Origin: Vampirovibrio chlorellavorus
GTDB taxonomy: Bacteria; Cyanobacteriota; Vampirovibrionia; Vampirovibrionales; Vampirovibrionaceae
NCBI RefSeq assembly: GCF_003149375.1
Contig: NZ_QFWH01000006.1
Coordinates: forward strand, 62,001-126,000
Direction: 5' to 3'
Length of the DNA stretch: 64,000 bases
In this document: one piece after another, positions 51,526-58,556 of the stretch
Numbering within the stretch: the first letter of the stretch is position 1
Layout: the number at the start of each line of letters is the position of its first letter
Made by a program: the position numbers and the translations under genes
Notes under the pieces: model-generated
Databases searched by the model: none
Told to the model about the DNA's origin: nothing
The model's input: only the letters and a program-made list of their open reading frames with translations

Positions 51526-51975
51526 TCATGGGCTTATAGATTGGATTGTTGTTCTGGAGTCATTGAGCATGGCGTTGTTGAGCAACTCGGGCTTTCGGTT
51601 TGTGTCTGTCCTGTCATTCTCATCATTTTCGTCATTTCCGTCATTCCCGCGAAGGCGGGAATCCAGAGTTTCAGGCTGTCCAGAAAGCGTCATATAGAGA
51701 TCGTCCCACTGTGGGTTAAGGGACTCAATCAATTTTAGTTTCCACCGGCGATTCCATTTTTTTATACGCTTTTCTCGTAGGAGCGCATTTTCAATGGAAT
51801 CGTGGGTTTCAAACCATACCAGTTGCTGCACTTCATAGTCACTGGAAAACCCCGGCATTATTTTTGCCTTGTGTTCATAGACACGACGCAAAAGGTCAGA
51901 AGTCACACCAGTGTAGAGGGTGCCATTTCTGGTACTCGCTAGAATATAGCAATAGTATTGGTTTACTTGACGCAT
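51526..51975 (-). CDS. GIY-YIG nuclease-domain protein with repeat-derived tail
   Basis: Protein of 149 residues from ATG 51975, just after repeat copy C, whose AGGA may act as ribosome binding site. Residues 1-90 are the GIY-YIG domain (YCYILASTRNGTLYTGVTSD, with LLRRVYEHK and the catalytic Glu in SIENALLREKRIKKW), like the small UvrC-N/UPF0213-type proteins of about 90-100 residues. The last 50 residues read through repeat copy B (LDSRLRGNDG) and Asp/Asn-rich triplets, so that tail is probably not ancestral. It lies between sucC and sucD on the same strand. Confidence 0.8.
   Translation of the reverse strand: MRQVNQYYCYILASTRNGTLYTGVTSDLLRRVYEHKAKIMPGFSSDYEVQQLVWFETHDSIENALLREKRIKKWNRRWKLKLIESLNPQWDDLYMTLSGQPETLDSRLRGNDGNDENDENDRTDTNRKPELLNNAMLNDSRTTIQSISP
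51640..51666. repeat. Palindromic intergenic repeat, copy B
   Basis: Arms TTCCCGC/GCGGGAA with loop GAAG, inverted relative to copies A and C. It lies in the 3' part of the GIY-YIG frame. Beside it are imperfect TCATTYYCR 9-mers (about 51613-51640). Confidence 0.85.
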
Positions 51976-51980
51976 TTTTC

Positions 51981-52009
51981 CTGGATTCCCGCCTTCGCGG
52001 GAATGACAG
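51981..52009. repeat. Palindromic intergenic repeat, copy C
   Basis: Same element as copy A with one loop difference, in inverted orientation to copy B and ending five bases before the GIY-YIG ATG. Copies B and C bracket about 315 bases. Confidence 0.85.
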
Positions 52010-52079
52010 ACCGGAGAAGGACAGACCGTTTTGGGTCCGAAAGTGTGCAGTCGGCCATTCAACACCATCACCGCTTGCG

Positions 52080-53258
52080 CTAGGCCACGGGTTGCTTCAG
52101 GAAGCTGGCGACTTTGCTGGCGGCGGCTTCCAGGGTTTCCTCCACGGCGTACTGAATGCCGGAATCCGCCAGGATCTGTTTGCCCAAGTCCACGTTGGTG
52201 CCTTTCATCCGGATGACCAACGGCAAGCGCATTTCCAGCTTGCGAGCGGCTTTCACCACCCCTTCGGCCAGTTTGTCGCACCGCAGAATGCCGCCGAAGA
52301 TGTTGATAAAAACCACTTCCACGGTTTCATCGGACAACAGAATGCGGAAGGCGTTTTCCAGCGCTTCATCGGTGGCGCTGCCGCCCACATCCAGGAAGTT
52401 GGCCGGTGCGGCGCCATACTGCTTGATGATGTCCATGGTGGCCATCGCCAGACCGGCCCCGTTGACCAGACAGCCCACGTTGCCTTCCAGCTTAATGTAG
52501 TTCAGGTTGTAGCGAGAGGCTTCCACTTCCAGCGGATCTTCCTCGTCCAAATCCCGGTAGGACACGATGTCCGGGTGGCGGAACAGGGCGTTGGAATCGA
52601 AGTCCACTTTGGCATCCAGAGCAAACACCCGGTTGTCGGTGGTGACTACCAGCGGGTTGATTTCCACCATGGCGCAATCGGCTTCGATAAAGACTTTGTA
52701 CAGGTTGGTGATCAGCTTCAGAGCGTCTTTCATGCCTTCTGCCGGAATATTCAGGGCGTAGGCGATTTTGCGGGCCTGATAGGGCTGCAAGCCAATAACC
52801 GGGTGAATGAATTCCTTAATAATGCGCTCGGGGTTTTTTTCAGCGACTTCCTCAATGTCCATACCGCCGTCCTGAGAGGCCATAATCACCGGGCGAGCGG
52901 TGGCCCGATCCAGCACGATGCTGATGTAGAGTTCACGGGCAATAGAGGAGGCTTCTTCCACCAGCACGGATTTGACTTTTTTGCCTTCCGGGCCGGTCTG
53001 GTGGGTGACCAGCTGCATGCCGATGATTTGCTTGGCCGCTTCCCGCACGCCATCCAAAGAATCCACCACTTTCACGCCGCCGCCTTTGCCCCGGCCACCG
53101 GCGTGGATTTGGGCCTTCACTACGTAGCGGTTGTCCTTGGTTTTCAAAATCTGGGCCACTTGCACGGCTTCATCGGGGGTAAAGGCTACTTGCCCTTCCG
53201 GAACCGGAATGTTGTACTTACGGAACAGCTCTTTGGCTTGGTACTCGTGGATTTTCAT
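52080..53258 (-). CDS. sucC: Succinyl-CoA synthetase beta subunit
   Basis: ATP-grasp subunit of the TCA-cycle ligase, 392 residues. Sequence features: MKIHEYQAKELFRKYNIPVP, the nucleotide-binding VKAQIHAGGRGKGGGVKV, VEINPLVVT, LDVGGSATDEAL and VFINIFGGILRCD. Start ATG 53258, with AGAGGT upstream, gives the exact family N-terminus. Together with sucD it makes the heterotetramer; a nuclease gene interrupts the pair. Confidence 0.97.
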   Translation of the reverse strand: MKIHEYQAKELFRKYNIPVPEGQVAFTPDEAVQVAQILKTKDNRYVVKAQIHAGGRGKGGGVKVVDSLDGVREAAKQIIGMQLVTHQTGPEGKKVKSVLVEEASSIARELYISIVLDRATARPVIMASQDGGMDIEEVAEKNPERIIKEFIHPVIGLQPYQARKIAYALNIPAEGMKDALKLITNLYKVFIEADCAMVEINPLVVTTDNRVFALDAKVDFDSNALFRHPDIVSYRDLDEEDPLEVEASRYNLNYIKLEGNVGCLVNGAGLAMATMDIIKQYGAAPANFLDVGGSATDEALENAFRILLSDETVEVVFINIFGGILRCDKLAEGVVKAARKLEMRLPLVIRMKGTNVDLGKQILADSGIQYAVEETLEAAASKVASFLKQPVA

Positions 53259-53350: not shown

Positions 53351-53737
53351 TTAGTTCTCGTTGTTTTCGGTGAAGTCGGTGACATCTATCTCCACGTCAC
53401 CTTCTTCATCATCCATGTTGTCAATGAAGGCCACCACTTTTTCAAATTCGGCCTCGTCCTCAATGGCTTCATACACTTCCTGGCCATCTTCGTAGCTAAT
53501 GCGCATGACCACCACTTCTTCCTCGTACCCCTCTTCGGACTCAGCGCCTTCTTCGGCCTCTTCGTCCAGCTCATCGGGCTGGTTGCCCTTGTAAATCAGC
53601 AGGGCGTACTCCTGGCCGTCCACTTCCAGTTCGCTGACTTTTTCAAACACGTGAACCTGTCCGTCCTCATCGGTGGTTTCGATGATGTCGGTTTCGATGT
53701 AGCTGCTGTTTTCCGTGTGACGTCCGTTTTCGATCAT
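53351..53737 (-). CDS. DUF1292-family acidic protein
   Basis: Protein of 128 residues, very acidic. The pattern IIETTDEDGQVHVFEKVSEL, EYALLIYKG and VVVMRISYEDGQEVYEAIED is that of DUF1292 (YrzB-like) proteins found next to the ruvX/udk genes in Firmicutes; function unknown. A Glu-rich loop of about 20 residues interrupts the domain. AAGGA lies ten bases before the ATG. It precedes sucC on the same strand and may share a transcript with the helicase upstream. Confidence 0.85.
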   Translation of the reverse strand: MIENGRHTENSSYIETDIIETTDEDGQVHVFEKVSELEVDGQEYALLIYKGNQPDELDEEAEEGAESEEGYEEEVVVMRISYEDGQEVYEAIEDEAEFEKVVAFIDNMDDEEGDVEIDVTDFTENNEN

Positions 53738-56328: not shown

Positions 56329-57339
56329 ATGATTCAGGCCCATCCTATTACGATAGAGACTGTGGATGCCTTGCGGGGCCTTTACCAGCGCTTTTGCCAA
56401 AAGGCCATTTCGGAGTACCGGTGGGCCCATGAGCCCATTGCCTTTGAGGCGCTGGCGCAAGCGTTGTCCCATAACCTTCTGCAGGGCTACTGGGTAGAGG
56501 ATACGGCCAATCCTGAACCCATTGCCCTGATGCTGTATCGGCTGGAAGAACACCGGGCCATTGAGATCAACCTGATTTATGTGGAAGTGGATGACCTGAA
56601 AACGGTCACCGACCGGCTGATTCGCCGCTTTATCGCCGATCACCGGGAAACCGAGGGCTGGGACGTGGTTAGCTACGCCATGTTGGGCCCCCAGGGCGCT
56701 TTGGTTAGGACGCTGCCCTGGTATGGATTCAAACCCATCGGGCAGGCCCAGTTCTGTCTGGATTTGACCGACAGCATCAGCTTGCAGATTTTTCAGCAGC
56801 AGGGCTTTGAACCGCTGGAGGCTGGCTACCGGCTGGATTGCTGGCAGCCGCAGTATGCAGGCGCCGTGGCCGAGTGCATTCATGAGGCCTTTCAGAATGC
56901 CGTGGACAGCCTGTGGGACCCACGCTTCCGCACACTGGCCGGGGCCCGCAAGGTGGTGGGCCTGATGAGCGCCGGAATGATGGGCCCGCTTCTGTCCCGT
57001 TGCACCAGTATTCTGCTGCGGGATGAACAGCCAGTGGGCTTCTGTTTTTTACTGCAGGACAGCCTGATGGAGGCCCATATTCCGCTGATTGGCATTAAGC
57101 CCGCCGAACGTCGGAAAAAGCTGGGCAGCCTGTTGCTGAAAGATTGTATCGTGCGTACCGTGCAGGACATGGTGTCCGAGCAAAACAGTATTTTGAGAAT
57201 CAAGGCCACCACGGACACGGACAATATCCGGGCCATTAAAATGTATCGGCGCATGGGTTTTCGAGAAGAGTACAACTATCCGCATGTGTATTTGACACGG
57301 GAAAAACTGCGGGCGTTTCAACCCGGAAAGTGGTGTTAG
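56329..57339 (+). CDS. Tandem GNAT-family acetyltransferase
   Basis: Protein of 336 residues with two GNAT-like halves. The C-terminal half (about 165-325) is the clearer one: IPLIGIKPAERRKKLGSLLL is the acetyl-CoA-binding motif A, and TTDTDNIRAIKMYRRMGFRE the end of the fold. The N-terminal half (1-150) has a weaker pattern (IEINLIYVEVDDLKTVTDRL and VVSYAMLGPQGALVRTLPWY). The next gene, a PRMT-like fusion, starts 12 bases after its stop, so they are surely one operon. Substrate unknown; a protein or peptide is suggested only by the context. Confidence 0.8.
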   Translation: MIQAHPITIETVDALRGLYQRFCQKAISEYRWAHEPIAFEALAQALSHNLLQGYWVEDTANPEPIALMLYRLEEHRAIEINLIYVEVDDLKTVTDRLIRRFIADHRETEGWDVVSYAMLGPQGALVRTLPWYGFKPIGQAQFCLDLTDSISLQIFQQQGFEPLEAGYRLDCWQPQYAGAVAECIHEAFQNAVDSLWDPRFRTLAGARKVVGLMSAGMMGPLLSRCTSILLRDEQPVGFCFLLQDSLMEAHIPLIGIKPAERRKKLGSLLLKDCIVRTVQDMVSEQNSILRIKATTDTDNIRAIKMYRRMGFREEYNYPHVYLTREKLRAFQPGKWC

Positions 57340-57350
57340 AGAGGCGAATC

Positions 57351-58556
57351 ATGGGTCAATTTCAGGATTTAACAACCAGGGTCAAACTGAACCCGGAAAC
57401 CTACTTCAAGTACGATGGCGGCGAGCATATTCTGCTGAAAAACATTCACTCCGACGATGGGTTGAGCATCAAGTACGACATCATGCTCATTTTGTATGAG
57501 TTAATCCACTGGAAGAGCGTGGGGGAGCTGATTGCCCCCTGGCCGCCGGATGATCAGGAGAAGATCAAGACCCATCTGGAAACCCTGTACGCCAGCCGCA
57601 TTGTCATCACCGATGAAGCGGAGGCCGCCGTGGCCTCGGAAAGCGGATTGTCCGAGACGCTGGGCAAAAACATTCACATCAACGTGGAAAATCACCATGT
57701 CATGCTGCGGGACTTTGTGCGCATGGCCGCTTATCGTCGGGCCATTGAACGGGCAGTGACCCCGGAGACGGTGGCCCTGGACCTGGGCTGTGGCTCGGGG
57801 GTGCTGTCCTTTTTTGCGGCCAAAGCGGGCGCTCGTAAAATTTTCGCCATTGAGCGCCGCTCTGACATTATTTATCTGGCCGAGCAACTGGCCAACGCCA
57901 ACGGGCTGGCCTCCCAAATCGAGTTTGTGGAAGGCGCATCCAGTCATATCAGCGAGGAGCGCTTGCAGCCCAAGCCCAACCTGCTGGTGGCCGAAATTCT
58001 GGCCAATGGCATTCTGGAAGAGAACGTGCTGGAGTTCACCATTGATGCCCGGCGTCGTTTTCTAGCGCCGGGGGCCCGCATGATTCCTTGCGGGCTGGAT
58101 ATTTACTTCTTTGGCTTTGATTGCGGCTTGCATCAAAGCCGCTGGGAGGAAGTAGAGGAGTTCAAGGACCTTTACGGCATCGACTTTACCCTGCTGGGGC
58201 ATGTGCTTTGCGGCAAGGCCACCATGCGTCTGGATCGCTTCAATACGGCCCTGCACAAGGCGGTGACTGATCCGGTACTGGTGCAGGCCATCGACTTTAT
58301 GACGCTTGAAAACCCGGCCTTTGTCAGCCGGTTTAAGCTGGTGGCCAAAGAGGACGGTCAGATCACCAGTTTCTGCGGTTATTTCAAAGCGCATCTGGAC
58401 GCGGAGACGGTGCTAACCAATTCTCCGTGGGCCCCGCCCACCCACTGGACGCATCTCATTTATACCCTGCCCGCTGCTCGTTCCGTGAAACGAGGCGATG
58501 TGCTTCAGTTGGAGCTGATTTACGACGGGGCTATGCGGCTGCAATTACTGGATTGA
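57351..58556 (+). CDS. PqqD-like domain fused to a protein-arginine-methyltransferase-like enzyme
   Basis: Protein of 401 residues. Residues 10-88 have a winged-helix pattern similar to PqqD/RRE domains, the peptide-binding modules of RiPP enzymes. From 114 the sequence is PRMT-like: HHVMLRDFVRMAAYRRAI, the AdoMet motif VALDLGCGSGVLSFFAAKAG (141-160), acidic post-I IFAIERR, the double-E loop E215-x8-E224 in LLVAEILANGILEE, and the THW loop at 364-366. The double-E and THW loops are what separate PRMTs from other methyltransferases. Start ATG 57351, with GAGAGG seven bases upstream. Operon with the GNAT gene. Confidence 0.8.
   Translation: MGQFQDLTTRVKLNPETYFKYDGGEHILLKNIHSDDGLSIKYDIMLILYELIHWKSVGELIAPWPPDDQEKIKTHLETLYASRIVITDEAEAAVASESGLSETLGKNIHINVENHHVMLRDFVRMAAYRRAIERAVTPETVALDLGCGSGVLSFFAAKAGARKIFAIERRSDIIYLAEQLANANGLASQIEFVEGASSHISEERLQPKPNLLVAEILANGILEENVLEFTIDARRRFLAPGARMIPCGLDIYFFGFDCGLHQSRWEEVEEFKDLYGIDFTLLGHVLCGKATMRLDRFNTALHKAVTDPVLVQAIDFMTLENPAFVSRFKLVAKEDGQITSFCGYFKAHLDAETVLTNSPWAPPTHWTHLIYTLPAARSVKRGDVLQLELIYDGAMRLQLLD

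Follow-up and report, generated by a model that had tools for sequence, protein, structure and literature searches.

The 64,000-nucleotide window analysed here, taken from a genome of 2.79 Mb in 14 contigs, contains a gene (57351..58556, + strand) whose 401 aa product joins an N-terminal winged helix of RRE-like predicted fold to a PRMT-type arginine methyltransferase. The fusion is real and, to our knowledge and in the literature searched, undescribed; no papers were found that deal with an RRE together with an arginine methyltransferase, or with arginine methyltransferase in Vampirovibrio. The protein is best read as an arginine methyltransferase that is guided by its RRE-like domain to some conserved protein of the cell, a function which we consider fairly probable.

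The ORF of the original prediction proved to be genuine: it starts with an ATG at 57351, ends with a stop codon at 58556 and is preceded, as read from the sequence, by a ribosome-binding-like AGAGG motif just 5' of the ATG. This motif lies in the intergenic gap (57340..57350, + strand) that separates the gene from that of a GNAT-family acetyltransferase (56329..57339, + strand; 336 aa) and that measures 11 nt rather than the 12 bases first reported, the GNAT stop codon ending at 57339. The closest named relative of the fusion protein, with 95% identity, is found in Vampirovibrio chlorellavorus NCIMB 11383.

The PRMT catalytic part

Residues ca. 111-395 are a PRMT-type methyltransferase, and this assignment is strongly supported. 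The 60 best PDB sequence matches of the protein are exclusively PRMTs, with yeast Hmt1/PRMT1 reached at 1e-29 over residues 114-390, and a profile built from 11 relatives reaches 3e-44 against PDB PRMTs. In Pfam, PRMT_C (PF22528) is matched with an E-value of 5e-11 and 43.3 bits, for a curated cut-off of 27. The full-length AlphaFold2 model (pLDDT 88, pTM 0.71) has PRMTs as all of its top 50 PDB fold matches, with E-values of ca. 4e-28 to 6e-25. This part comprises a SAM-binding Rossmann domain (57681..58088, + strand), which carries DLGCGSG at 144-150, E168 and the double-E loop E215-x8-E224, followed by the PRMT β-barrel (58089..58553, + strand) with its THW loop (T364-H365-W366) and dimerisation-arm helices at 264-287, both the barrel and the arm being indicated by PF22528, by the strands and helices of the model and by the PRMT fold matches. 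The helix pattern of PRMTs is also present as H115/M118/D121/R124.

In an alignment of 11 relatives (46-95% identity), N114, H115, M118, D121 and R124 are invariant, as are D144, L145, G146, G148 and G150 of SAM motif I, the acidic E168, both residues of the double-E loop and the three of the THW loop; only C147 and S149 of the SAM loop vary. The conserved residues are those which, from the alignment with Hmt1, we take to be the SAM-binding, double-E, His-Asp and THW residues of PRMT1. The AdoMet, double-E, THW and helix motifs on which the original prediction relied are thus all present and, save for these two positions, invariant, and the PRMT identity that it proposed is borne out by sequence, profile and fold matches alike. 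The αX YFxxY motif, a feature of type I PRMTs which the whole superfamily need not carry, is absent, positions 105 and 109 being G and H when aligned around H115, and V226 occupies the position of M155 of PRMT1, so that the sequence does not predict whether monomethylarginine or symmetric or asymmetric dimethylarginine would be formed. As the αX motif is not conserved here, substrate binding may differ from that of eukaryotic PRMTs.

The identity that had been set against PRMT for the C-terminal part, namely PrmA, was rejected. The Pfam PrmA model clears its cut-off with 43.1 bits, vs 43.3 for PRMT_C, but it spans residues 131-223 only and its similarity is limited to the shared SAM-binding part, whereas PRMT matches run from end to end of the C-terminus. 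The NCBIfam prmA model (TIGR00406) gives 35 bits for a cut-off of 183, and a PrmA-like protein of 312 aa, identified by eye from its sequence, is encoded separately in the genome (L002, 970-1908).

Relatives of the protein encoded by plasmids match its catalytic part only, with 22-37% identity, and no viral relatives were found. The plasmid matches H1, H4, H5, H6, H9 and H10 are PRMT-like and annotated as "50S ribosomal protein L11 methyltransferase", a label which, for bacterial PRMT-like proteins, is probably a systematic misannotation. Further PRMT-like proteins from Rokubacteria, Acidobacteria, Cyanobacteria and others (L088, L091, L095, L097, L101, L102, L107, L108, L113, L156 and L159) show changes in the double-E/THW loops and end in a small conserved domain (LCDGRRALGEIEREVHRRHPxLF is an example) that resembles a helical winged-helix remnant, while L110 and L114, from proteobacterial/Myxococcota MAGs, carry C-terminal TPR-like repeats. 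Two Myxococcota PRMTs, L092 and L093, cluster with yeast Hmt1 (95/96), the former bearing the eukaryote-like motifs SEWMG and PPTHWQQ, and may have a bearing on how eukaryotic PRMTs originated or on gene transfer.

The N-terminal RRE-like domain

When residues 1-100 were modelled alone with AlphaFold2 (mean pLDDT 83), a winged helix (residues ca. 9-87; 57375..57611, + strand) was predicted in the order βββ-ααα, with strands at 10-13, 17-21 and 26-31, a short fourth strand (38-41) ahead of the first helix, and helices at 42-50, 57-61 and 66-81. The predicted model thus has the order by which a 2025 study strictly defines RiPP recognition elements (RREs), in which the peptide cleft lies between α3 and β3 (PMC12710340). 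Foldseek matched 847 PDB chains to this model at E<=10; RREs and ribosomal oxygenases make up most of the top 50, with no ArsR/MarR fold among them. The best matches correspond to the RREs of TigE, PbtF, LynD/TruD-type heterocyclases, TbiB1, MadB/NisB, MccB and PqqD, along with NO66 and YcfD chains, these two being ribosomal oxygenases. Probabilities are mostly 0.9-1.0 and E-values modest, from 2e-3 at best to 0.3, and Foldseek alone gives high false-positive rates on this small type of domain (PMC12710340).

At the sequence level, neither PF05402 (PqqD) nor any other RRE profile of Pfam/NCBIfam matched the N-terminus of any of 11 members, three of which gave a weak ArsR profile match (E 0.003). 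No second copy of the domain was found elsewhere in the genome. The N-terminal domain appears RRE-like by its predicted fold, and membership of the PqqD sequence family was rejected as no PF05402 match was reported. Of the PqqD/RRE-like N-terminus originally put forward, the RRE fold is therefore retained as a prediction and the PqqD family is not; the best structural matches are almost all to RREs and to NO66/YcfD, and not to the winged helices of transcription factors. The domain is joined to the catalytic part by a presumably flexible linker (residues 88-110; 57612..57680, + strand), within which the full-length model has low pLDDT at 91-99.

A scan of the phylum returned 13 distant PRMT-like matches outside the order, all of which align from residue 97 or later, so that none covers the RRE-like domain. 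In other bacterial PRMT-like proteins no equivalent N-terminal domain was seen, with the possible exception of that of a Silvanigrella MAG (L117, 5201-6433), whose N-terminal extension resembles the RRE-like layout in a collinear, weak alignment (P 0.02).

Distribution, inheritance and the GNAT gene

The PRMT gene was found in 12 of the 18 genomes of the order Vampirovibrionales. All genomes of families f1 and f2 carry it, save for two whose completeness is 76-78%, and it is absent from all four f3 genomes. The two f1/f2 genomes concerned are also devoid of the GNAT gene, a joint absence that fits a single missing stretch in incomplete assemblies. Eleven copies are complete, matching over their full length with the N-terminal domain kept, and the remaining one is truncated where its contig stops. 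Each domain is under purifying selection and the protein is strongly constrained, with dN/dS values, for the window compared with V. chlorellavorus NCIMB 11383, of 0.040 for the whole protein and of 0.065, 0.032 and 0.041 for the RRE-like domain, the methyltransferase domain and the barrel, respectively; the corresponding mean column agreements are 0.64, 0.73 and 0.60.

The fusion forms a monophyletic clade (100/100) which divides along two families, in which it is vertically inherited. This clade branches among bacterial PRMTs and apart from the two eukaryotic sequences in the tree, which argues against acquisition of the gene from the algal host. Outside the clade, a Cloacimonadota PRMT comes closest, with modest support (88/82); this protein (L085, 6001-6951) has a SEC-C-like zinc motif, GRNDLCPCNSGKKYKKCC, at its C-terminal end.

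The gene located upstream had been described as a double GNAT gene. Its C-terminal half does contain a GNAT domain (PF00583, E 4e-10 at residues 228-311), recognisable only within residues ca. 220-325 and with PDB profile matches only at 220-327, but its N-terminal half has no assignable similarity and is not alike the C-terminal one, and no internal duplication was detected, so that a second GNAT domain was not retained. GNAT and PRMT are the sole pair of neighbours adjoining in every locus in which the flank is present. This adjacency, conserved in related genomes, supports the operon that had been proposed, and the two genes are probably co-transcribed. The GNAT gene also occurs without PRMT in families f3 and f6, the f6 homologue (L067-L073) being directly 3' of the ribE-ribBA riboflavin genes, which indicates that the pairing is secondary and that an obligate two-enzyme system is unlikely. 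GNAT is older than its pairing with PRMT and, while not obligately tied to it, may function in the same pathway.

Two other features were observed in this region. A DUF1292 gene (53351..53737, - strand) has a counterpart close to the GNAT-PRMT pair in 7 of 12 loci, this one included, and in two f2 loci the gene and the pair are directly divergent; a GIY-YIG-type nuclease-like ORF (51526..52281, - strand) has flanks that carry repeats of the PAKAGIQ/SREGGNP type.

Possible substrates and comparison with known systems

As an RRE-guided arginine methyltransferase, this bona fide bacterial member of the PRMT superfamily would be a class I, SAM-dependent enzyme, probably dimeric, whose N-terminal winged helix would dock a protein or peptide substrate away from the catalytic pocket, with the β3/α3 cleft binding a recognition strand of that substrate. 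The linker, of ca. 20 residues, would let the target arginine reach the pocket of double-E and THW loops, where SAM would donate a methyl group to a guanidine nitrogen. Rather than a RiPP precursor, the substrate would be a conserved protein of the cell, such as one belonging to the translation apparatus, as favoured by the vertical presence of the gene in two families and by the lack of a local precursor. RG-repeat proteins are the usual substrates of PRMTs; in this genome they are not above chance, with 5 matches vs 9 in a reversed-pattern control, and they were rejected as candidates. The broader proposal, that an RRE-type domain guides a bacterial PRMT either to a specific cellular protein or to an unlinked small precursor, is a plausible but tentative one.

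The system that had been proposed from the outset, in which acetylation and arginine methylation would modify a RiPP-like substrate, is not supported: the GNAT gene is the older of the two and is found without PRMT in two families, neither a precursor nor another RiPP gene was found nearby, and the pair shows the vertical inheritance of a housekeeping gene. In a related form, the RRE-like domain would bind the leader of an unlinked precursor, with PRMT methylating an arginine and GNAT acetylating the peptide. The best fold matches of the N-terminus are indeed RiPP leader-binding domains, precursors can sit away from the enzyme gene and a SPASM-domain protein is encoded in the genome, so that a RiPP system is possible, but it is less likely than a conserved cellular protein as substrate and, taken by itself, rather unlikely. 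No conserved short ORF flanks the GNAT-PRMT pair, in line with the original remark that no precursor was obvious in the operon, and a local precursor was rejected on this ground; neither a PqqD domain nor a YcaO protein occurs in the order. The SPASM-domain protein is unlinked to PRMT and, while present in most f1/f2 genomes, is missing in two that carry PRMT (G005 and G008), for which reason it was rejected as a partner. GNAT is the only neighbour conserved throughout, and the near-universal presence of the fusion in two families is unlike the patchy occurrence of RiPP clusters. Fusions of RRE-like folds to JmjC enzymes that modify proteins, with no precursor encoded nearby, have been described (PMC12710340) and, with the likeness to NO66/YcfD, indicate that the RRE fold is used outside classical RiPP clusters.

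It is quite unlikely that free L-arginine or another guanidino small molecule is methylated, with the N-terminal domain as a structural relic or dimer element. A bacterial arginine-guanidino methyltransferase of this kind exists in SznE/StzE, which makes Nω-methyl-L-arginine (PMC11705231), and BmdC, which holds a relic RRE-like domain without leader role (PMC8795117), keeps the relic explanation alive, but here the domain is kept in 11 of 11 complete copies, with the dN/dS of 0.065 given above, and no biosynthetic cluster was seen around the gene. Winged helices often bind nucleic acid, and the weak ArsR match of three of the 11 N-termini would agree with a domain that binds RNA or DNA, in an enzyme that methylates nucleic acid or a residue other than arginine; with invariant double-E and THW loops, which make up the arginine-guanidine pocket, and with ArsR/MarR folds missing from the top 50 Foldseek matches, this is very unlikely. 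Finally, V. chlorellavorus is a predator of Chlorella, and the closest named relative of the protein belongs to this species, as might be expected of a PRMT acquired from algae and delivered into Chlorella, where it would methylate host proteins. Such an effector is scarcely credible for a clade that stands apart from the two eukaryotic sequences, has a Cloacimonadota protein as nearest outsider (with the modest support mentioned), follows family lines and is spread over two families; inspection by eye revealed no targeting signal.

Protein arginine methylation by PRMTs has been studied nearly entirely in eukaryotes, and the fusion offers a tractable system for what bacterial PRMTs do and for where the PRMT family arose. 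It also allows one to ask whether protein modification outside RiPP pathways makes use of the RRE fold, as the likeness to NO66 and YcfD suggests. If RRE-guided methylation of a specific cellular protein or of an unlinked small precursor is true, it would represent a prokaryotic counterpart of eukaryotic arginine methylation having its own substrate recognition, by a type of domain hitherto known chiefly from the biosynthesis of peptide natural products.

With type I PRMTs (PRMT1/Hmt1, PRMT3, CARM1) and PRMT7, the protein shares the Rossmann and β-barrel domains, PRMT_C, the double-E and THW loops and the H/M/D/R helix, but it is bacterial and has 21-24% identity with them in fold alignments. 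It further differs from type I enzymes by the absence of αX YFxxY and by V226 at the M155 position, and from eukaryotic PRMTs in general by the RRE-like domain that replaces their N-terminal domains. The catalytic core is shared with other PRMT-like proteins of bacteria, for which 50S L11 methyltransferase is a frequent annotation, but no RRE-like N-terminus was seen in these except perhaps in L117. SznE/StzE, likened here by description and not by sequence, is a bacterial methyltransferase that acts on an arginine guanidine, as is presumed for the present protein, but its substrate is a free amino acid and its gene lies inside a natural-product cluster (PMC11705231). The N-terminal domain resembles the RREs of PqqD, TigE, PbtF, LynD and MccB in its predicted βββ-ααα order, with Foldseek probabilities near 1.0, and differs from them in having no profile-level sequence similarity, no RiPP genes or precursor nearby and a PRMT as fusion partner. 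Lastly, the JmjC enzymes NO66 and YcfD, which according to their PDB titles modify ribosomal proteins, likewise associate a protein-modifying enzyme with the same kind of winged helix; their catalytic fold is unrelated and they hydroxylate, whereas the PRMT described here would methylate.
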